64,000 nucleotides of DNA from Corynebacterium bovis DSM 20582 = CIP 54.80 (GTDB taxonomy: Bacteria > Actinomycetota > Actinomycetes > Mycobacteriales > Mycobacteriaceae). Of the stretch, positions 10,118 to 42,154 are shown piece after piece (the stretch's first letter is position 1; each line of letters starts with the position of its first letter). The notes under the pieces are model-generated. The model was given only the letters and a program-made list of their open reading frames with translations, searched no databases and was not told the DNA's origin. Where the stretch lies: assembly GCF_030408615.1 (NCBI RefSeq), contig NZ_CP047187.1, positions 1,860,001 to 1,924,000 of the forward strand, given 5' to 3'. Made by a program: the position numbers and the translations under genes.

Positions 10118-10930
10118 ATGCACCAGGACCCGAGCCGCGCCGCCCTGTCCCCTGACGCCGCCCGCCTGCTGGACATCCACCACCGGGCGTCGCCGACGTG
10201 GCGTACCGCCGCCCCCGCCGTCGTTTTCGTCCTCGGCACGGCCCTCGCCGTCACCCTGCCGCTCCGGGGCATCGAGCCGGTCGTGCTCGCCGTCACCGCG
10301 GTGGTCATGCTCGTCGTCGCCTGGTGGGGAGCCCGCGTGCCCGGGACCCGCCCGAACAGCTACGACCCGCTGCGCCCCGACGCCGTCGCCGCCGACGGCA
10401 CCCGCCCCCGGGCCACCGTCGTGACCGTCGCCGTCTTCCTGCTCTACCCGGTGTTGACGCTCGCGACCGCGCTGCCGGGCTGGTTGGGGCTGCCGGGCTG
10501 GTGGGGCTGGGTCGTCTGTGTCGTCGTCGCGGCCGTCATCGCGGCCGTCCTCCTCCGCCCCGGTACGCAGAACCCGGACTACCGGCGACCGGCCGAGCTC
10601 TACCGGCTCCACCCGGGGTACCGCCCCGCCGACGACGCCGAGCAGCTCGCCGCCGTCCTCCACGCCCTCCACGCCTGCCCGGCCGGCGTCCAGGTGACCC
10701 GCGACCGGCTCCGGGACGCCGCCGGGTTCGGGGACGACGACCACCTCGACGCCGCACTCGCCGCGCTCACGGCGTCGGGTGACGCCGCCGTCCTCGTCGA
10801 GCGCCGCAGCGACGGGACGCGTGAGACCTGGCACACCCTCTCCCCCGAGGGCCGGGACCGGTTCCAGGCCCGCGTCGCCGGCACCGATGCCGCCGGCACC
10901 GCCACCGGTCGGGCCGGGGCCGCGGCGTAG
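10118..10930 (+). CDS. membrane protein with winged-helix-like C-terminus
   Basis: Not a family I can name. The 270-residue product has two hydrophobic hairpins (about residues 28-72 and 103-145, so about four membrane segments), then a cytosolic part. Residues about 165-260 read like a winged-helix domain: a helical stretch with HALHACPAGVQVTRDRLRDA, a second helix with DDDHLDAALAALTASG, and a wing-like stretch ending WHTLSPEGRDRF, similar in style to MarR/PadR tails. It is divergent from rne and convergent with ndk. A membrane-bound regulator is one reading. A structural membrane protein with a helical tail is the plainer one. Confidence 0.75.
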   Translation: MHQDPSRAALSPDAARLLDIHHRASPTWRTAAPAVVFVLGTALAVTLPLRGIEPVVLAVTAVVMLVVAWWGARVPGTRPNSYDPLRPDAVAADGTRPRATVVTVAVFLLYPVLTLATALPGWLGLPGWWGWVVCVVVAAVIAAVLLRPGTQNPDYRRPAELYRLHPGYRPADDAEQLAAVLHALHACPAGVQVTRDRLRDAAGFGDDDHLDAALAALTASGDAAVLVERRSDGTRETWHTLSPEGRDRFQARVAGTDAAGTATGRAGAAA

Positions 10931-21380: not shown

Positions 21381-22094
21381 TCAGGACTGGGCGGACAGCT
21401 TGCGGTAGTCGAAGACCTGGTCGATGATCCCGTACTCCTTCGCCTCGGCGGCGGTGAGGATCTTGTCACGGTCCGTGTCGATCCGCACCTGCTCCGCGGT
21501 CCGGCCGGTGTGGCGTGCGAGCGTCGTCTCCATGAGCGTCCTCATGCGCTCGATCTCCTTGGCCTGGATCTCGAGGTCGGAGACCTGGCCCTGGACCCCG
21601 CCGGTCGCGGGCTGGTGGATGAGGACGCGCGCGTTCGGCAGCGCGGCGCGCTTGCCGGGGGTGCCGGCGGCGAGGAGCACCGCGGCGGCGGAGGCGGCCT
21701 GGCCGAGGCACACGGTCACGACGTCGGGGCGGACGTACTGCATCGTGTCGTAGATCGCCATGAGGGACGTGAAGGACCCGCCGGGCGAGTTGATGTACAT
21801 GGTGATGTCCCGGTCGGGGTCCAGGCCCTCGAGGACGAGGAGCTGGGCCATGATGTCGTTCGCCGAGGCGTCGTCGACCTGGGTCCCGAGGAAGATGATG
21901 CGCTCCTCGAAGAGCTTGTTGTAGGGGTTGGACTCCTTCGCCCCGTACGTCGAGTGCTCGACGAACGACGGGAGGATGTACCGGGAGGTGGGCATCTGAG
22001 GGCCGCCCGGCTGTGCGGCGTCACCGGCGGCGTGCCGTCCCTGGCCGGTGAGCTGCGTCGCGTGGGTCACGCCCTGGGTGCTCGTGGTGTGCAT
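21381..22094 (-). CDS. clpP2: ATP-dependent Clp protease proteolytic subunit ClpP2
   Basis: Serine protease subunit that in actinobacteria assembles with ClpP1 into a mixed tetradecamer. 237 residues from ATG 22094, which has AGGAGA 6 nt upstream. The family core starts near [26 protein letters not shown]. The catalytic Ser lies in [14 protein letters not shown], and the His in LIHQPA. The first 33 residues are an N-terminal propeptide-like extension. It lies 64 nt downstream of clpP1 in one operon. Confidence 0.96.
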
Positions 22095-25706: not shown

Positions 25707-26124
25707 GGGCGGTCACCTGCGGTGACCTGCTGCGGTGTCCGGGCTGCGGGGCCCGGTACGTCACCGGCCCGCGGGGACCGGACCGGTTCACGACCATACA
25801 CCACCGCGTCGCCGCCGACGAAACCCCCGGGCCCGGTCCGGGCGGCGGCCCCGACCGTGCTCCCGGCCGCGCTCCCGGTCGCGTTCCCCGTCGCGCTCCC
25901 AGTCGCGTTCCGCGGGCCGCCGGACCGCCGGCCCCCTCCGTCCACCGTGCTCCCGGACGGCCATCTTGGCCGCGTCCACCTCCGCCGTCGCGGACGCGGC
26001 CGCGTTCACGTCCACTGTCACGACCGTGTTCATGTCCCGGCCACGGGACGTGCACCGGCTCCTCGCCGCCGGGACACCGGGACGCCACCGCGGGGTCACC
26101 CGGGTGCCCTACGCTCCCCGGACC
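25707..26124. other. gene-free upstream region of phospholipase gene
   Basis: No gene recognised. Two repetitive stretches are visible: a CGCTCCCGGTCGCG-like repeat around 25858-25915 and GC-rich spacer. TACGCT at 26110-26115 lies 9 nt before ATG 26125 and could be the -10 of a near-leaderless transcript, since no Shine-Dalgarno is present. Confidence 0.4.
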
Positions 26125-28179
26125 ATGACGTCCACGACCCCCGACCCCGCCGACCACTCCTCCGACCGCGCCGACCGTCCGCACCCGGACACCACCGGCA
26201 CCGGCACCGCCGACGCCACCCGCCCCGCCCCCACCACGGCCGACTCCCCCGCCGCCACCGCCGACCCGGACACCCCGACCCCGGCCCGGGGCGGGGTGTC
26301 CCGCCGCGCGGTCCTCCGGGCGGGCGCCCTCGGTGCCGCGGCGGCCGCGGCGGGCGTCGCGGGGTCGTCCCTCCTGCCCGGCCCGCTGCTCGACCGCCTG
26401 GCCGAGGCCGCCCCGGCGGGGTCGCTGCGCGACGTCCGCCACGTGATCTTCCTCATGCAGGAGAACCGCGCCTTCGACCACTACTTCGGCAGCCTCCGGG
26501 GCGTGCAGGGGTTCAGTGACCCGGCCCCGCTGCGTCGCCGCGACGGCGGCACCGTGTTCGAACAGCGCACCGCGGATGGTTCGACCGTGCTCCCGTTTCT
26601 GATCCGGAATGCGGCGGGACGGCAGAACATGAACGCGGAGAACGTCGACGCCCTCGACCACGAGTGGGACAGCGGGCAGCAGGCGTTGGACGGCGGATGG
26701 TGCGACCGGTGGGTGCCGGCCAAGACGGCGTCGACAATGGCCTTCTACGACCGCCGCGACCTGCCCTTCCACTACGAGCTCGCGGACGCCTTCACCATCT
26801 GCGACCAGTACTTCTGCTCGGTGCCCACGAGCACCTCCCCGAACCGCAACTACTGGTTCTCCGGGTGGACCGGCTGGGAGCCGCACGCCCCGGGGACGCG
26901 GGCCGTCGACAACCGGGCCTACGACGACGGCCACCCGGGCTACGACTGGCCGTGCCTCGCGGAGATCCTCGACACCGCCGGAGTGGGATGGAAGGTCTAC
27001 CAGGAGTGGGACAACTTCACGGACAACAACCTGGAGTACTTCCACTACACGAAAGCCGTCTCCCGGAAGGTCTTCGACCGGTGGGGCAGTGTCGGGGAGA
27101 ACTACTACTCCGCCCTCGCGAAGGCCGTCGCGGACGGGGACGGGGCCACCCGCCGCCGCCTGGAGGACCAGCTCGCCGACCGCCTCGCCACCCTCACCGA
27201 CGACGAACGCCGGCTGTTCGACCTCGCCCTGTACCGCTCCCCGACCGGCACGCTGACGGACCGCGTCGCCGCCGACATCCGCGCCGGCACCCTCCCGGAG
27301 GTCTCGTGGATCGTCGCGGGCACGGACGAGTCGGAGCACCCCTCGGGCTCGTCGCCGCGCGCGTCGGCGAACCTCATCCACCGCCTCCTCGACGCCCTCG
27401 GCCGCTCCCCGGAGACGTGGCGCCACACGGCCGTGTTCATCACCTACGACGAGAACGACGGCTACTTCGACCACGTCCCGCCGCCGCGCCCCCCGGAGGG
27501 CGAACCGGACGAGTGGTACCGGGGCCTGCCGATGGGACTGGGCAACCGGGTCCCGATGATCGTCGTCTCCCCGTGGACCGTCGGCGGCCACCGCTGCTCC
27601 GAGGTCCACGACCACACGTCGGCCGCCCGCTTCCTCGAACGGTGGAAGGGCATCACGGTCCCGACGGTCTCCGCGTGGCGCCGCCGGGTGTGCGGCGACC
27701 TCACCGGGGCGTTCGACTTCTCCACCCCCGAGGCGTACACCCCGACCACCGCCCCGGCACCCGCCGACCCGCTCACGCCACGGTGGACCCCCGACCCGCC
27801 GGAGGAGCCGGTCATGCCGTACCAGGAGCCGGGAACCCGCCCGCAGCGGCCGCTGCCCTACCGGGTGTCGGCCACGGCCGAGCCCATCCCGGACGGCCGT
27901 CACCTGCGGCTGACGTTGCGCAACGCCGGCCCCCGGCACGCGAACCTGCTGGTCCACCCGTTCCACGACCCGCACGCGACGGTCGGCGCCCACGACGTCC
28001 TCGGCGAGGTCACCGTCGACGTGCCGCTGCGGGACGGCCGGTGGGATGTCACGATCACGGGCCCGGCCGGGTTCCGCGCCGATTTCCGCGGTGACCTCGG
28101 CGGCGGCCGGCCGGGCGGGTCCCGCGGGCCCGCCGGGTCGGGGTCCGCGGATCAGCCCTCACCGGTCAGCTCCAGGTAG
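26125..28179 (+). CDS. Tat-exported phospholipase C (phosphoesterase family)
   Basis: 684-residue secreted phospholipase C of the non-hemolytic, phosphatidylcholine-type family. After a Thr/Pro/Ala-rich N-terminus, SRRAVLRAGALGAAAAAAG (about residues 58-76) is a twin-arginine signal. The catalytic domain has LMQENRAFDHYFG, VPTSTSPNRNYWFSG and YDENDGYFDHVPPP. The end (about 570-665) matches the C-terminal domain of bacterial phospholipases C (RNAGPRHANLLVHPF). Likely roles are phosphate and choline scavenging or host-lipid damage. Its last 28 bp overlap the convergent methyltransferase gene. It sits in the accessory segment beside tRNA-Gly. Confidence 0.9.
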   Translation: MTSTTPDPADHSSDRADRPHPDTTGTGTADATRPAPTTADSPAATADPDTPTPARGGVSRRAVLRAGALGAAAAAAGVAGSSLLPGPLLDRLAEAAPAGSLRDVRHVIFLMQENRAFDHYFGSLRGVQGFSDPAPLRRRDGGTVFEQRTADGSTVLPFLIRNAAGRQNMNAENVDALDHEWDSGQQALDGGWCDRWVPAKTASTMAFYDRRDLPFHYELADAFTICDQYFCSVPTSTSPNRNYWFSGWTGWEPHAPGTRAVDNRAYDDGHPGYDWPCLAEILDTAGVGWKVYQEWDNFTDNNLEYFHYTKAVSRKVFDRWGSVGENYYSALAKAVADGDGATRRRLEDQLADRLATLTDDERRLFDLALYRSPTGTLTDRVAADIRAGTLPEVSWIVAGTDESEHPSGSSPRASANLIHRLLDALGRSPETWRHTAVFITYDENDGYFDHVPPPRPPEGEPDEWYRGLPMGLGNRVPMIVVSPWTVGGHRCSEVHDHTSAARFLERWKGITVPTVSAWRRRVCGDLTGAFDFSTPEAYTPTTAPAPADPLTPRWTPDPPEEPVMPYQEPGTRPQRPLPYRVSATAEPIPDGRHLRLTLRNAGPRHANLLVHPFHDPHATVGAHDVLGEVTVDVPLRDGRWDVTITGPAGFRADFRGDLGGGRPGGSRGPAGSGSADQPSPVSSR

Positions 28180-30734
28180 CGGGCGAAGAGCAGGTCCCGG
28201 CGCACCCGCTCCGTGACGGGGCCCGGGGACGCGCCGAACGCCGCGTCCACGACGCGGTCGAGGGCGTCGTGCGCCGCGCGCAGCGCCGGGTCCATCGCCG
28301 CCGGGTCGTACGCCTCGGCCAGGCTGCGCCCCGGGTGCAGCGCCCGCGCGGCGAGCACGCCCCGGCCCGCGGCGACGACGGCGGCCCGGCTGGCGGCGTC
28401 GAGAACCGGCACCGGCAGGTTGTTCCACGTCACCGTGTTCGACAGGCTCAGCGAGGACCCCAGCCGGCCCCCGACGGTCCGCATCCACGTCACCGCCATC
28501 GACGACGACGCGAGACCGAACAGCACGCCCCCGTCGTCCGGCGCGGCGTAGACCTTGTTCGACACGACGACCCCCGGGGCCAGCGCCGCGACCGGCAGGT
28601 ACGGCCGGAGCTCCGAGCTGACCTCCGGCAGGCCGACGACCGGCCCCGCGGCGGTGAACCCGCGCTGCCGGAACAGGTGGTCGTGCCGGAACGCGCGCGT
28701 GGACTCCGCCCGGGACGCGGCACGGAACGCCCGCACCGCCGCGAGCCTCCGCCGCAGCTCCGGCGACCGCTCCAGGTCGGCGGGGTCCGCGTCGACGAGC
28801 CACAGGCACCACCGCCGCCCGCCGTGGAGCAGCTCCCGGGAGCCCACGTACGGCCGCAGGTACCGCGCCGCGACCGGGTCGGCGGCCACCCGCGCGTACT
28901 CCTCCGGCCCCACGACGAGGTGACCGCCGTCGACCGGCTTCGACCCGTACGCCAGCGGCGGCACCTCCGGGCTCAACGGCCGGGGGCGTTTCTCCACGAG
29001 CACCATCGGCCCGTCCACGAGGTACGCGTTGATCGAGGTCCCGACGGGCACCTCCACCGGCCGGCCGTCCGGGCCCGGGTGGTCCCACAGCACCGGCGGC
29101 GGGTGCCCCTCGCGGTCGAACCCGATGATGACGCAGCGCACCGCCGCCCGCCCCGGCACCTCCGAGGTCCACGGGAACGTCCGGTGGGCGAACCGGATCC
29201 GCCAGCCCTCCCGGACGATCGGGCGGAACAGCCGGGCCGGCTGGTCGCCCTGGGTGACCGAGCTCGTCGTCACGAAGGCGAACGCGCCCCGCCGGTCCGC
29301 CAGCAGCCGGAGCGTCCGGGCGTGCCAGCCGGTGGCGTAGTCCAGGCGGGACAGCTGCACGCCCGGGCCCCACGCGGCCCGCAGGTCCCGGAGCTGGTCC
29401 GGGGTGCGCGTGTGGTCGCCGAGGAACGGCGGGTTGCCGAACACGTACGTCATCCCCGGGGTGCGCGGGACGACGGCCCGCCAGTCGAGGCGCAGGGCGT
29501 TGGCGTGGATGATGTGCGCGGTGGCGGGGGCGGTGGCGGTGCGCGCGGTGGCGGGTGCGGCGGGGGTCGTCGCGGTGGCGGGGGCGGCGGGGGACGTCGC
29601 GGTGGCGGGGGCGGGTACGGCGGCGGGGTCGGCGTCCACGTGCCCGGCGACGGCGGCGGCGAGCGCGCGGTCCGCCAGGTGCCCGGCGAGCGTCATGACC
29701 GTCCCGGCGACCGTCGCCGACCACCCGTTGATCTCGATGCCGTGGAACTGCCCGAGGCTCACCCGCTGCTCGGCGCGCGCCCGCTCCCCCGCGCCCGACG
29801 CACGGGCGGCACCACCGCCCCGGCCGTGGCCGACGGGCCCGCCGGCGGAGGGGTCCGTCGTCCCCCTCCTCACCCCTGCACCCGGCCCACCCCCCTCCCC
29901 CTCCTGCTTCCGCTCCTGCTCCCGCTCGCGCTCGCGCTCGCGCCCGAGGATCGCGACGATGACCTCCGTCTCCACCGCGCGCATCTCCCGGTACGCGACG
30001 GCGAGGAAGTTCCCGCACCCGCACGCGGGGTCGACGACGACCGTCTCCGCGAGCCGGTCGCGGAAGCGCCGGAGCTCCGCGACGGTGGTGGACGGGTCGC
30101 GGAGCAGGCGCCGCGCCTCCGCCCGGAGCTCGTCGAAGAACAGGGGGTCGACGACCCTGAGGATGTTCTCCTCGGTCGTGTAGTGCTCGCCGCCGGCCCG
30201 CCGGTCCTTCGCGGACGTCACCAGCTGGAGGGCCGACCCGAACACCGCCGGGGAGATGCGCGTCCACCGGAACCGGCACGCGGCGAGCAGCGCCTCACGC
30301 ACGTCGGCGGGGAGGGCGCCCGGGGGACACTCCTCGGCGAACAGGCCGTCGGTCACGGGCGGGAACCCGGCCATCGCCGCCGGGACGTGCCGACGGTCCC
30401 CCTCCGCGGTGCCGAGCAGCCGGAACAGGCGGGCGAGCTGCGGGCCGAGCGTGGCCGGGGTCGTGTGGTGGAGGACGAAACGGTGGAACAGGCCGGGTTC
30501 CCACAGGCCGGCGTCGTCACCGTAGAGCAGGAACAGCAGGCGCGTGAGGACGACCGCGGTCCGGCGGGACCGGCCGGCACCGGTGGGGGCGTACCCGGCG
30601 CCGGCGGAGGCGTACGCTGCGCCCGTGTGCGCGTGCCCGGCCCTGTCCCCGGTCAGCGCGGCGTGGAGGTCCGTCATGAGCCGGAGCGCCCGGGCGGGGT
30701 CACGCAGCGGCGCAGCATCTGTGCAGCGCGTCAC
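28152..30734 (-). CDS. MmeI-like DNA adenine methyltransferase, no nuclease domain
   Basis: 860 residues resembling the methylase part of type IIL MmeI-family restriction-modification enzymes. Helical spacer: LTRLLFLLYGDDAGLWEPGL (63-82) to GGEHYTTEENIL (181-192). Methylase: motif I VVDPACGCGNFL (233-244) and motif IV FGNPPFLG (432-439). Then FAHRTFPWTSEVPGRAAV, and a target-recognition-like part with YLVDGPMVLVEKRPRPLS and YGSKPVDGG. MmeI proteins have about 150 residues with a D-EXK nuclease before the spacer. Here the GTG start leaves only about 60, Ala/Gly-rich and with no such motif. Two low-complexity inserts (about 265-320 and 370-405) split the methylase. No separate nuclease gene is adjacent. 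Confidence 0.85.
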   Translation of the reverse strand: MTRCTDAAPLRDPARALRLMTDLHAALTGDRAGHAHTGAAYASAGAGYAPTGAGRSRRTAVVLTRLLFLLYGDDAGLWEPGLFHRFVLHHTTPATLGPQLARLFRLLGTAEGDRRHVPAAMAGFPPVTDGLFAEECPPGALPADVREALLAACRFRWTRISPAVFGSALQLVTSAKDRRAGGEHYTTEENILRVVDPLFFDELRAEARRLLRDPSTTVAELRRFRDRLAETVVVDPACGCGNFLAVAYREMRAVETEVIVAILGREREREREQERKQEGEGGGPGAGVRRGTTDPSAGGPVGHGRGGGAARASGAGERARAEQRVSLGQFHGIEINGWSATVAGTVMTLAGHLADRALAAAVAGHVDADPAAVPAPATATSPAAPATATTPAAPATARTATAPATAHIIHANALRLDWRAVVPRTPGMTYVFGNPPFLGDHTRTPDQLRDLRAAWGPGVQLSRLDYATGWHARTLRLLADRRGAFAFVTTSSVTQGDQPARLFRPIVREGWRIRFAHRTFPWTSEVPGRAAVRCVIIGFDREGHPPPVLWDHPGPDGRPVEVPVGTSINAYLVDGPMVLVEKRPRPLSPEVPPLAYGSKPVDGGHLVVGPEEYARVAADPVAARYLRPYVGSRELLHGGRRWCLWLVDADPADLERSPELRRRLAAVRAFRAASRAESTRAFRHDHLFRQRGFTAAGPVVGLPEVSSELRPYLPVAALAPGVVVSNKVYAAPDDGGVLFGLASSSMAVTWMRTVGGRLGSSLSLSNTVTWNNLPVPVLDAASRAAVVAAGRGVLAARALHPGRSLAEAYDPAAMDPALRAAHDALDRVVDAAFGASPGPVTERVRRDLLFARYLELTGEG
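29545..29630 (-). repeat. 27-bp tandem repeat in methyltransferase gene
   Basis: Two full units (29545-29571 and 29572-29598) plus a variant third encode a nine-residue Ala/Pro/Thr repeat in the second low-complexity insert. In-frame copy changes would only lengthen or shorten the linker. Confidence 0.75.
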
Positions 30735-31144
30735 GCGGCGAACGTATCACATCCGCAGCACGCCGGGAACGGTTCCCGCGGAGTCCGTTCAGCCGGTCAC
30801 CCGGGGACCGCGGACAGGGCCCGGACGAGCTGCGGAACCCATTCCGGGAAGGAGAAAGTCGCGGCGGTGAATATTACTCCACCGCTGTTCCGGATATCTC
30901 CCGGGAACGAGCCCGGAGTGATCAGGTCACCGGGAACCCACGGCGGAGCGGCGTCGGTTCGGGATGAACTCCGTTGGGCCGGGAATGGCCGGGAATGGCG
31001 CCGAGTGGCACAGAATGCCCCGGAATGGCGTCCGACGCATTCAGGTGCACTTAATCTCGCACGCATCCGGGACGACCGGGCCGACCCGCCCCCGCGCGGC
31101 CACCTCCGGGACCGCCCGGCACCGTCCGCCCCGCCCCGCGCGGG
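30735..31144. promoter_or_regulatory. methyltransferase promoter region with CCGGGAA cluster
   Basis: No gene found, and no remnant of a nuclease domain could be recognised in three minus-strand frames by eye. TACGTT at 30741-30746 (minus) lies 6 nt before GTG 30734, a leaderless layout. A perfect 7+1+7 palindrome CGGGAACGGTTCCCG (30764-30778) sits where the -35 should be. CCGGGAA occurs six times on the plus strand: 30763, 30844, 30901, 30930, 30979 and 30989. GC falls visibly from about 30840 to 31060. Confidence 0.5.
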
Positions 31145-32902
31145 TCAGAGCCCCTTGAAGCTCGACGGCCGCGGGATGTTGCGCAGGTTCGACCGGGCCA
31201 TGCCCAGCATCTTGCCCACGCCACCCTCGAGGACGGTGCGCGTCGCCGCGCGGGTGAAGCCGGCGACCTGCTCGAGGGAGATCTCCGGCGGGATGGACAG
31301 CGCGTTCGGGTCCGTGACCACGTCGACGAGCACCGGGCCGTCGTGCGCGAGGGCCTTCCGCAGCATCGGCTCGACGTCCTCCGGCTTCTCGATGCGGAAG
31401 GACGTGATGCCGCAGGCCTGCGCGATGTCGGCGTAATTGACCTTCTCGTGGTCCGTGCCGAAGTCCGGCAGGCCGGCGACGAGCATCTCCAGCTTGACCA
31501 TGCCGAGCGTGGAGTTGTTGTACACGATCGTCTTCACCGGCAGCTGGTGGAGCTTCACCGTCAGCAGCTCGCCGAGGAGCATCCCCAGCCCGCCGTCGCC
31601 GCTCATGGAGATGACCTGGCGGTTCCGGTCCGCGGCCTGCGCGCCCATGGCCTGCGGCAGCGCGTTCGCCATCGTGCCGTGGCGGAAGGAGGCGAGGAGC
31701 CGCCGGTTCGCGGACGGCGTGATGTACCGCGCCTGCCACACATTGCACATGCCGGTGTCGGCGGTGAACACGGCGTCGTCGTCGGCGAGCTCGTCGAGGA
31801 CGTAGGAGACGTACTCCGGGTGGATGGGCGTCCGGCTGCTGATGTTCTTCGTGTACGCCTCGATGACGTGGTGGAGGTTCTTCTCCTGCTTGCGGAGCAT
31901 CGAGTCGAGGAAGCTGCGGTCGGTCTTCTCGCTGATGAGGGGGAGGAGGTCCTCGATCGTCGCGGCGACGTCACCGACGACCGGGAGGGACACCGCGGTC
32001 CGACGCCCGATGTTCGCGCCCTTGATGTCGATCTGGGCGGTCAGGGTCTTCCGGGGCAGGAACTCCGAGTACGGGAAGTCGGTGCCGACGAGGATGAGCA
32101 GGTCGGCCTCGTCGAAGGCGTCGTTGCACGCGCCGTAGCCGAGGAGGCCGGACATGCCGACGTCGTACGGGTTGTCGTAGTGGAGGTACTCCTTGCCGCC
32201 GTAGGCGTGCCCGACCGGGGCCTTGATCTTCTCGGCGAGGGCGAAGACCTGCTCGCGCGCGCCGGCGCAGCCCGCACCGCCGAAGAGCGTGACCTTCTCC
32301 GCCTTGTTGACGGCGTCCGCGAGGGCCCGGACCTGGTCGTGGTCGGGGCGGACCCGGTGCGACGACGTCGCGTACGCGCTGTCGATCGCGGGGGTGTCGA
32401 CGGCGTCGTCGGCGGCGATGTCACCGGGGATGACGATGACGGACACGCCGTTGCCGGCGACCGTGGACTGGATGGCGTTGTGCAGGATCGTCGCACCCTG
32501 GCGGGCGGAGTTCACCATCTCGCAGTACCCGGAGCACTCCTGGAACAGCGCCTCCGGGTGCGTCTCCTGGAAGTAGTGGGAGCCGATGAAGTGCGACGGG
32601 ATGTGGCTGGCGATCGCGAGGACCTTCGCCCCGTTGCGGTGGGAGTCGTAGAGCCCCTGGATGAGGTGCGTGTTCCCCGGCCCGCACGACCCGGCACACA
32701 CGGCGAGGTCGCCGGTGACGACGGACTCCGCGCCGGCGGCGAACGCCGCCGCCTCCTCGTTGCGCACGTGGAACCACTCGATGGAGCTGCGCTTCACCGC
32801 GTCGACGATGGGGTTGAGGCTGTCGCCGACGAGACCGAAGATCCGCTTCACCCCCTGCTTCTCGAGGGTCTCCACCAGCTGCTCAGCATAGGTTTTCGCC
32901 AT
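31145..32902 (-). CDS. pqo: pyruvate:quinone oxidoreductase / pyruvate oxidase
   Basis: ThDP- and FAD-dependent peripheral membrane enzyme that oxidatively decarboxylates pyruvate to acetate and CO2, passing electrons to quinone. The 585-residue product starts MAKTYAEQLVETLEKQGVKR, with GAAGGAC before ATG 32902. It has the ThDP glutamate region FHVRNEEAAAFAAGAE and the ThDP-binding GDG motif SGDGGLGMLLGELLT followed by YNNSTLGMVKLEM. It resembles corynebacterial Pqo and E. coli PoxB more than acetolactate synthase. It stands alone. TACGCT at 33039-33044 (minus) is a candidate -10, with a leader of about 130 nt. Confidence 0.9.
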   Translation of the reverse strand: MAKTYAEQLVETLEKQGVKRIFGLVGDSLNPIVDAVKRSSIEWFHVRNEEAAAFAAGAESVVTGDLAVCAGSCGPGNTHLIQGLYDSHRNGAKVLAIASHIPSHFIGSHYFQETHPEALFQECSGYCEMVNSARQGATILHNAIQSTVAGNGVSVIVIPGDIAADDAVDTPAIDSAYATSSHRVRPDHDQVRALADAVNKAEKVTLFGGAGCAGAREQVFALAEKIKAPVGHAYGGKEYLHYDNPYDVGMSGLLGYGACNDAFDEADLLILVGTDFPYSEFLPRKTLTAQIDIKGANIGRRTAVSLPVVGDVAATIEDLLPLISEKTDRSFLDSMLRKQEKNLHHVIEAYTKNISSRTPIHPEYVSYVLDELADDDAVFTADTGMCNVWQARYITPSANRRLLASFRHGTMANALPQAMGAQAADRNRQVISMSGDGGLGMLLGELLTVKLHQLPVKTIVYNNSTLGMVKLEMLVAGLPDFGTDHEKVNYADIAQACGITSFRIEKPEDVEPMLRKALAHDGPVLVDVVTDPNALSIPPEISLEQVAGFTRAATRTVLEGGVGKMLGMARSNLRNIPRPSSFKGL

Positions 32903-33541
32903 GGTCAGTCCTTCCCCGGGTGCACCGGTTCGTGCGTGGTGTCTGTCCGCCGCGGGAGCCGGTGTCGCCGTCCCTGCGGCCCGTGTGACCTGCGCCGGGG
33001 CATCCCCCCGGGCCCGGCGGCACGGTGTACGTCCATCCAGCGTAGACACGTGCGGACGGCGTCGCCACGGCCCCGCCGCCGGTGGGCGGGAAACCGAACT
33101 CACCGGACGGCCGGTGTGGGGTCACCCTCGTTCACCCGCCGCGCGCACCCCTCGACGCGGTGGGGACGGCTCCTCCCCGGTGCCGGGGACGCCCCACGCG
33201 GCCGAGCCGCGGATGTGGTTCCCCCGTACGGTTACCCCCGTTGAAATTCCAAAACTCAGGTTCCGAAAACCCCAGTACAACCGCTACCCACAGACGGACA
33301 TGAGCCCTTGATGAGCCCCCTCAGACGACGCTCAGGTCCGTGTGTCACCGCCGCTGTGGTCACGGCACGTAACCGCCCCCTCCCGCGGGCCGTCGGGAAC
33401 AACGTTCAGGACGGTCACAGTTTCGGGGAATAAATTCAGATATTGAAATATGTAATATACATCAGATCAGCTGGGGTATCAGTTGGACAAGTATCACGGT
33501 TGAGATTGTCACTGAGAACGGAGGTCACTAGGGTCGAACGC
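32903..33541. promoter_or_regulatory. long intergenic region with AT-rich pocket
   Basis: No gene recognised. From about 33240 GC drops. 33430-33465 is strikingly AT-rich and contains two overlapping dyads: ATATT-GA-AATAT (33440-33451) and ATGTA-ATA-TACAT (33450-33462). Downstream, TTGTCA (33506-33511), a 17-nt spacer and TAGGGT (33529-33534) make a textbook promoter, with 7 nt to ATG 33542. The dyads lie about 45-65 bp upstream of the -35 and look like regulator sites. Confidence 0.6.
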
Positions 33542-41050: not shown

Positions 41051-41380
41051 GTGAGCCCCGTCACCCCGCCCGTCATCGCCACCCGTCGCGGTATCGCCGT
41101 GACGGCACTGCTGGCGCTGGGGGTGCTGGGGGTCCTCGCCGCGACGGAGTCGACCGTCGTCGAGCGGACGGTCATCCTCGTGCCCGTCGTCGGCCTGCTG
41201 TTGTTCGCCATCGCCCTCAACACGTACCGGGCGCGGCACGGTGCGGAGCTGGCGGAGTCAGCGTGGCTGCGGGATACGGGCGAGTCCGCCGGGGCGCGGG
41301 GCGAAGGCGGTGCCGAAGAGCCCGTCGATGCGGATCCACGACCCGGTGACGCTCACGCGGACACGGTCGTGAACTCGTAG
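41051..41380 (+). CDS. small two-TM membrane protein
   Basis: Unrecognised. GTG 41051 (VSPVTPPVIATRRG) with AGAGGACC about 9 nt upstream gives 109 residues: two membrane helices (about 13-32 and 37-57) joined by a short TESTVVERT loop, then a polar Gly/Glu/Asp-rich tail. The last 123 bp overlap the convergent gene 41258-42154. A longer in-frame start at 40925 adds a basic stretch without family character. The C-terminal tail may be loosely constrained because of the overlap. Confidence 0.6.
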   Translation: MSPVTPPVIATRRGIAVTALLALGVLGVLAATESTVVERTVILVPVVGLLLFAIALNTYRARHGAELAESAWLRDTGESAGARGEGGAEEPVDADPRPGDAHADTVVNS

Positions 41381-42154
41381 CGCCTCGGCCGCCGGTTCGG
41401 TCGCGAGGCCGAGTGCCCCCATCGCGGCGATGACCCGCCCCCCGACGGCGACCGGGCCGGTGGCCGGGCTGTCGAGCGTGAGCACCTCCTGGTCCAGCAG
41501 CGACCGGGCGACACCCGCCGGGCCCGAATGCTCCCTGCTCTCCGCGGACATCCCCGCGTAGAGCTCCCTGACCGCCGCACCCGGCACCGTCTCCACGACG
41601 GTGAAGCCGGACACCGGCGGCGGGCTGCCCGTCCACAGGATGTCGACGCGCGGCCCGAGGGTGAGGACGTCCGCGGTGGGCGCGGTCCCGGTCGTGGGGT
41701 CTGACCCGCCGGCCGGTGCGCCGGGGGCGTCCGGGGTCCCGACGGCGGCAGCGTCCGCGGTGGGTGGGGTGCCCGTCGCGGTCGCCGTCGCGGACGGGTC
41801 GGTCGCCGTCGCGGACGGGTCGGTCGCCGTCACGAGGGCGCGGTCCACCGCGGCGAGCACGCGGTCCGCCATGACGACCGCCCCGTCGGTCGTGTCCCCG
41901 CCGAGGACCCCGCTCCTCCCCCGCTCGGCCCCGGGGCCGGACGCCCCGACGGGGCGGGCCGCGATCCGCTGGGAGACGATGCAGCCCAGCGGCGTGGAGA
42001 TGAACAGGTCCGTGCGGTCGTCCGCCACGACGCGGAGCCGGACGACGGCCTGGCCGTCCATCCGCACGGCCCGGGCCAGCACCCCGACGATGCGGCGCAG
42101 CGTCGGGGCCTGCGCCCCGGCCGGCCGGGTCAGGGTGAGCGTGACGTCATCCAT
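41258..42154 (-). CDS. conserved-looking protein of unknown function
   Basis: 298 residues, no family recognised. N-terminal part (1-75) is a compact domain with MDGQAVVRLRVVADDRTDLFISTPLGC in its middle. Residues about 95-155 are Thr/Ala/Pro-rich and include a TATDPSA repeat from a 21-bp DNA repeat. The C-terminal part (165-298) has TLGPRVDILWTGSPPPVSGF and RVRVSVTGSWIRIDGLFG. No signal peptide or membrane helix. It lies between the 26-bp repeats downstream of ettA and a convergent membrane gene with which it shares 123 bp. Confidence 0.65.
   Translation of the reverse strand: MDDVTLTLTRPAGAQAPTLRRIVGVLARAVRMDGQAVVRLRVVADDRTDLFISTPLGCIVSQRIAARPVGASGPGAERGRSGVLGGDTTDGAVVMADRVLAAVDRALVTATDPSATATDPSATATATGTPPTADAAAVGTPDAPGAPAGGSDPTTGTAPTADVLTLGPRVDILWTGSPPPVSGFTVVETVPGAAVRELYAGMSAESREHSGPAGVARSLLDQEVLTLDSPATGPVAVGGRVIAAMGALGLATEPAAEALRVHDRVRVSVTGSWIRIDGLFGTAFAPRPGGLARIPQPR
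41780..41821 (-). repeat. 21-bp tandem repeat in unknown gene
   Basis: Two exact units (41780-41800 and 41801-41821) plus a partial third encode a seven-residue ATDPSAT-type linker repeat. Confidence 0.7.

Follow-up and report, generated by a model that had tools for sequence, protein, structure and literature searches.

What remains of a restriction-modification enzyme when its nuclease is missing is the question raised by one gene in the 64,000-nucleotide stretch of the Corynebacterium bovis DSM 20582 genome analysed here (contig NZ_CP047187.1, positions 1,860,001 to 1,924,000; referred to throughout as the window). An open reading frame called on the minus strand of the window (28152–30734) encodes, from a GTG start, a protein of 860 amino acids (aa) that resembles the type IIL enzyme MmeI. 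The gene is best read as encoding a putative orphan methyltransferase with a presumed regulatory or epigenetic role; the complete explanation, according to which an orphan N6-methyladenine (m6A) methylase has lost its nuclease, reads five bases and ignores base 6, is given about an even chance of being correct. The coordinates of all features are collected in Table 1.

The Pfam families MmeI_hel, MmeI_Mtase, MmeI_TRD and MmeI_C were all matched above their cut-offs, and the nuclease domain MmeI_N was not found in the 860-aa protein at an expectation value (E) ≤1; NCBIfam gave zero matches for the protein. The best PADLOC class was type IIG (771 bits), the best DrmMI model scoring 69 bits. In the sequence alignment with the solved MmeI (PDB 5hr4), MmeI residue 188 onward was paired with query residue 61, and in the structural comparison, which an earlier sequence-only reading of this DNA had proposed, query residues 11–860 of the model were superposed on MmeI residues 160–906, past the nuclease (residues 1–155 of MmeI; PMC4833311). 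The first residue of the protein falls, in the alignment, where the nuclease of its relatives ends. The helical spacer before the methylase was recovered by Pfam, by the model and by the structure match, and the MmeI-type target recognition domain (TRD) followed by a C-terminal bundle by Pfam and the structure match; an N-terminal PD-(D/E)XK nuclease is absent, and the residues upstream are too few to hold one. The arrangement of spacer, methylase and target-recognition blocks without an N-terminal nuclease that the sequence-only reading had described was thus confirmed.

This conclusion is independent of the choice of start, because an in-frame TGA lies five codons 5′ of the GTG and limits the open frame to 864 aa; a longer in-frame N-terminus was excluded by the same codon. 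No nuclease remnant was found in the 410-bp gap upstream when positions 30601–31500 were compared with the 190-residue N-termini of relatives longer than 900 aa and of eight loci. Out of frame, only weak matches were obtained, the best of them (E 0.002) lying antisense within the neighbouring thiamine pyrophosphate (TPP)-enzyme gene. MmeI_N gave no match at E ≤1 anywhere in the 2.65-Mb genome, a search of limited sensitivity because it was positive in just 4 of 14 control genomes.

Relatives were collected by a protein search at E ≤1e-30, which gave 1411 matches, 120 of them listed. MmeI_N (PF20464) was present in 115 of these 120, the exceptions being P0002, P0003, P0011, P0076 and P0109. Of the matches listed, the two closest, P0002 (near-identical to the window protein, from a cluster of 40 member sequences) and P0003 (91% identical) are both without the domain; the source code of P0003, 'lgn', is taken to stand for metagenome assemblies. 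At least 150 residues precede the column of MmeI residue 188 in 222 of 240 aligned sequences; loci with a first frame ≤700 aa were omitted from the residue, conservation and N-terminus comparisons. Besides P0001 (the window protein), P0002 and P0003, the 18 sequences with short N-termini are P0011, P0043, P0076 and P0109 (labelled partial by a source), L059 and L066 (frame open at a contig end), L098, L112 and L115 (at or near contig ends), L107 (in-frame stop), L086, L103 and L105 (N-terminal truncation), L069 (a seeming internal loss) and P0120 (137 residues). The frames at L086, L103 and L105, from three genomes of the same genus, are of MmeI type and 650 aa long; they have neither the nuclease nor the whole of the spacer but retain the K-D pair discussed below, and are probably remnants. 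A 777-aa MmeI-type protein of a Planctomycetaceae metagenome-assembled genome (L069, 1736–4084) keeps the K-D pair and about the first 28 residues, most of its nuclease having seemingly gone by an in-frame internal deletion.

In a tree of 48 rows the window protein, P0002 and P0003 formed a single clade (support 100/100) among nuclease-bearing enzymes, the other 45 rows keeping the nuclease region as judged by an MmeI_N match (29) or by length (16, with at least 181 residues before query residue 60). The stem of the nuclease-less clade measured 0.86 changes per column, compared with about 0.08 from P0003 to the window protein, and some of its closest neighbours in the tree are proteins named Corynebacterium variabile. 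The position of the clade, on a long stem and surrounded by enzymes that have the nuclease, makes loss of the domain in this lineage the most likely course; domains, alignment, structure model and tree therefore bear out the earlier proposal of an MmeI-like methyltransferase that has lost its nuclease. Matches were present in 340 plasmid records (best identity 57.4%), and the six phage records with distant matches include none that spans 80% of the query.

Every catalytic residue examined in the alignment was intact (H184, DPACGCGNF, E334, NPPF and W522), and motif I, NPPF, the catalytic His and the Trp of a gamma-class m6A methylase are all present. The equivalent of H184 in MmeI, His314, stacks on the flipped adenine (PMC4833311). 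Bases were assigned by applying the contacts and covariation published for MmeI enzymes (PMC4833311) to the aligned residues: A676/Q690 would fit A at base 1, and a C would be read at each of the next three bases, by Y596/K599 at base 2 (the MmeI situation), by E704/N726 at base 3 and by K727/S763 at base 4; base 5 is the A that is methylated. At base 6, the pair Glu806/Arg808 of MmeI is replaced by Gly759/Ser761 (G-S) and is thus not a family-typical pair: of the other rows, all 234 that have letters at this site carry K-D (179 rows) or E-R (55 rows, MmeI included), four more being gapped, and G-S is found, among the rows aligned, in P0001, P0002 and P0003 only. The nine other specificity positions are identical in 24 rows (3 G-S, 20 K-D and 1 E-R), the nuclease-bearing relative P0004 being among them. 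Since the rows sharing them mostly carry K-D, the ancestral site is likely to have been ACCCAG; the present site is predicted to be ACCCAN, with five bases read and ACCCA as the best guess.

When the residues of the C. striatum pTP10 enzyme were read by the same code, they spelled AAGGAG. This enzyme is presumably CstMI, the site of which is AAGGAG. Phe/Met go with A at base 2 in CstMI (PMC4833311), and the same residues occur in the pTP10 enzyme. Motifs of the ACCCA type showed neither clear avoidance nor excess in the window (seen/expected: ACCCAG 26/21.8, ACCCAC 40/40.5, ACCCAT 7/9.0, ACCCAA 0/1.8; ACCCA in total 73/73.1).

Alternatively, the protein might be an active orphan methylase in which the altered residues have become specific for a different base at position 6. 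The G-S pair could be a fixed new specificity, as it is common to all three nuclease-less proteins; every other sampled enzyme with letters there has K-D or E-R, however, and glycine offers no side chain for a base contact, and this possibility is regarded as remote.

With no cutting domain and with the base-6 pair gone, the protein is predicted to methylate DNA without cutting it, and its target has probably become shorter. In the course of events proposed here, the lineage would have lost the nuclease and the protein would be an orphan m6A methylase working without partners; its TRD would still read A-C-C-C-A and no longer base 6, and the last A of ACCCA would be methylated on one strand only, the ancestor having handled ACCCAG. 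Selection keeping the base-6 pair may have been lifted, because a loosely read site would be harmless without a cutting domain. More speculatively, the marks could influence gene expression, as has been reported for those of DnmA in Bacillus subtilis. The locus would offer a natural experiment in the turning of a restriction-modification enzyme into a solitary epigenetic methylase, for which the MmeI specificity code yields a sharp prediction, m6A at ACCCAN; if this holds, it would suggest that restriction itself maintains recognition specificity and that a recognition domain relieved of its nuclease can shorten its site.

The main rival reading is decay, in which little or no methylase activity was left after nuclease loss and the frame survives since stops are rare at 77% G+C. 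Divergence from P0003 (protein sequences only, gaps counted) was low in the core, at 14/457 in residues 404–860, 2/37 in 326–362, 15/209 in 60–268 and 6/40 in 20–59, versus 34/98 in the two insert-bearing stretches, which are low in complexity; Fisher p values were 0.023 (404–860 versus 60–268) and 8e-18 (404–860 versus the inserts). Substitutions were found in 41 of 758 core columns, and these columns are more variable in relatives than the remaining ones (p 0.008). The comparison suggests that the methylase and TRD are under present constraint. This strong contrast between core and insert-bearing stretches, the intact catalytic residues and the unbroken frames of P0002 and P0003 speak against decay; the loss of the base-6 pair, the long stem branch, the many changed conserved positions, and the broken or truncated relatives in the genus, such as the 650-residue frames of three genomes and frames interrupted by stops, speak for it.

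Several further points weigh against an active methylase reading ACCCA. The window protein departs at 10 of 112 columns of 95% conservation, the most among 221 sequences, and at 5 of 79 columns of 98% conservation, the second highest count, sequences more than 60% identical to the tested one being excluded in each case. This version of the test is milder than a first pass (32 of 199 near-invariant columns changed, versus ≤2.5% in relatives), which it superseded and which was unfair because the set contained close sisters of the relatives. A large share of the changed positions falls in the helix that follows motif II (residues 337–355, positions 29670–29726). The long open frame is weak functional evidence at this G+C content, the strand opposite the gene being itself open for 1055 codons. 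Some of the amino-acid drift may be due to the high G+C content, and composition was flagged in the tree analysis. P0002 and P0003 were compared as proteins. It may also be that the G-S change prevents DNA binding rather than relaxing it. As to the site, R689 occupies MmeI position 737, where enzymes that read G typically have a positive residue (PMC4833311), so that base 1 is the least certain call; base-2 residues were called poor predictors in the same specificity paper (PMC4833311). Decay is, all in all, considered a serious possibility, albeit a somewhat doubtful one. In each of the three proteins without the nuclease, helix 337–355 departs strongly from the consensus of the family.

An orphan methylase was further examined against its genomic setting. 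No nuclease or helicase gene adjoins the methylase gene: a phospholipase-C-like gene (25735–28179, Phosphoesterase and PLipase_C_C) converges with it, the frames overlapping by 28 bp, and a poxB-like TPP-enzyme gene (31145–33103, identified by Pfam) flanks it on the other side. Apart from the methylase, the window has 38 predicted frames; a Pfam scan of these recognised no restriction-type partner, 35 of them having a family match (those without are 10118–10930, 21424–21753 and 41258–42154), and PADLOC gave zero matches on 9 of the 38. As regards DISARM, DrmMI was not the best family match, and no PADLOC match was obtained in the nine neighbours. The suggestion of the sequence-only reading that the gene might supply the modification activity of a defence system not yet recognised accordingly found no support.

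In a broader form of that idea, the protein would be the modification half of a restriction or BREX-like system that is split, the nuclease or translocase being encoded at another place in the genome. The same genome encodes an Mrr-type nuclease of 311 aa (L141, 1018–1953, G000:C1) and a 1613-aa frame with helicase-like and N6-methylase sequence (L140, G000:C1:2081395–2084943), perhaps a type ISP-like single-chain restriction enzyme. Mrr-type enzymes can attack methylated DNA, and such a nuclease alongside an active methylase would be informative. Precedents in PMC4752239 are AchA6III and OspHL35III, in which an MmeI-type methylase is accompanied by a separate nuclease protein, and a type II nuclease gene at least 36 kb from its methylases. 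The partner genes of AchA6III and DnmA are adjacent, however, the helicase–methylase frame has methylase motifs of its own (NPPY), and no partner was recognised among the 38 frames, three of them without a family match; a split system is judged quite improbable.

Neither the methylase gene nor the phospholipase gene was matched (E ≤1e-4) in six stretches of relatives (G028, G024, G030, G003, G019 and G001), of which G019 and G001 are uninformative, the stretch taken showing neither the trigger-factor gene nor the tRNAs. The TPP-enzyme gene is separated from tRNA-Gly by about 90 bp in G028 and about 170 bp in G024, with the tRNA oriented as in the window, and by about 160 bp in G030 and about 1.6 kb in G003, with the tRNA inverted. 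The two genes were either inserted here or lost in the relatives. The ends of the 5.4-kb interval share no direct repeat of at least 10 bases; one inverted 12-mer, G/C-rich, was found. Since two of the four relatives (L134–L137: G028, G003, G030 and G024) have the tRNA-Gly beside the TPP-enzyme gene in inverted orientation and its surroundings vary, the region looks like a rearrangement hot spot.

Concerning the start, the TACGTT box lies within TGATACGTT and ends 6 nt upstream of the GTG. Its placement is beyond chance, because the density of TANNNT in the window is low (6.8e-4 per strand-base) and TGNTANNNT is rare, occurring just twice in 128,000 strand-bases. In C. glutamicum, according to PMC3890552, TAnnnT is found 3–11 nt 5′ of about 97% of mapped start sites, about 33% of mRNAs are leaderless and about 21% of these have a GUG start. 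P0002 and P0003 start at an ATG corresponding to residue 20 of the window protein; the GTG is mildly favoured because the first helix of the model covers residues 8–28. A leaderless start at GTG 30734 is likely; the earlier statement that the start is fixed by a leaderless promoter is plausible, as an inference from sequence alone.

Table 1. Features of the methylase locus (window coordinates).
Feature	Positions	Strand	Details and basis
Nuclease-less MmeI-type adenine methyltransferase (predicted)	28152..30734	-	860 aa, GTG start, Pfam domains
MmeI_hel spacer domain	30339..30557	-	residues 60-132, Pfam
His184 (= MmeI His314)	30183..30185	-	alignment
Motif I VDPACGCGNFL, S-adenosylmethionine (AdoMet) binding	30003..30035	-	residues 234-244, alignment
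Low-complexity insert-bearing stretch	29760..29930	-	residues 269-325; 12/57 differ from P0003; model confidence low at 286-310
Low-complexity insert-bearing stretch	29526..29648	-	residues 363-403; 22/41 differ from P0003; model confidence low at 371-403
Motif IV NPPF, catalytic	29424..29435	-	residues 434-437, alignment
MmeI_TRD target recognition domain	28404..29012	-	residues 575-777, Pfam
Gly759-Ser760-Ser761, aligned with base-6 reader MmeI Glu806-Ser807-Arg808	28452..28460	-	alignment
MmeI_C helical domain	28164..28394	-	residues 781-857, Pfam
TACGTT, predicted -10 box (extended: TGATACGTT)	30741..30746	-	sequence, motif densities
In-frame TGA closing the frame upstream of GTG	30747..30749	-	sequence
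5.4-kb interval from tRNA-Gly to TPP-enzyme gene, holding the methylase and phospholipase-C-like genes	25707..31144		comparison with relatives

No published account of the gene was found among the papers listed on MmeI nuclease domains and orphan forms, on nuclease loss with relaxed specificity, on Corynebacterium methylomes with type IIG enzymes or on C. bovis methyltransferases. With MmeI (type IIL, PDB 5hr4) the window protein shares the spacer, the gamma-class m6A methylase, the TRD, the C-terminal bundle, the catalytic His, motif I, NPPF and the Trp; it differs in having no PD-(D/E)XK domain, in Gly/Ser for Glu806/Arg808 and in its low-complexity inserts. The pTP10 enzyme and other Corynebacterium MmeI homologues, about 50–60% identical in their best segments among the matches listed, have a nuclease region and a K-D or E-R pair, unlike the window protein.

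MmeI homologues without the nuclease are already known, and the base-6 change is the new element; neither it nor the long stem branch had featured in the sequence-only reading. DnmA (YeeA) of Bacillus subtilis, which recognises GACGAG, likewise is a homologue without the nuclease motif; as described in PMC7261158, it methylates a non-palindromic site and its marks alter the expression of some genes. By the same description, the motif is absent from its N-terminal domain, whereas the entire domain is gone from the window protein, and the genes after dnmA are yeeB and yeeC, a putative helicase and a putative endonuclease (PMC7261158), whereas the flanks of the window gene are of other kinds and include no adjacent helicase or nuclease gene. 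The type IIG-like systems AchA6III and OspHL35III likewise combine an MmeI-type methylase and TRD without the nuclease motif; their nuclease resides on a separate protein, according to PMC4752239, and none was recognised for the window gene. CamA of Clostridioides difficile, which recognises CAAAAA, was matched from query residue 159 at 12% identity, most of the spacer being unmatched, and is described in PMC8187626 as leaving the base pair after the target adenine uncontacted. That nuclease loss freed the TRD, giving a five-base ACCCA orphan methylase that converged on CamA, is put forward tentatively, as a rather uncertain parallel that falls short of even chances.
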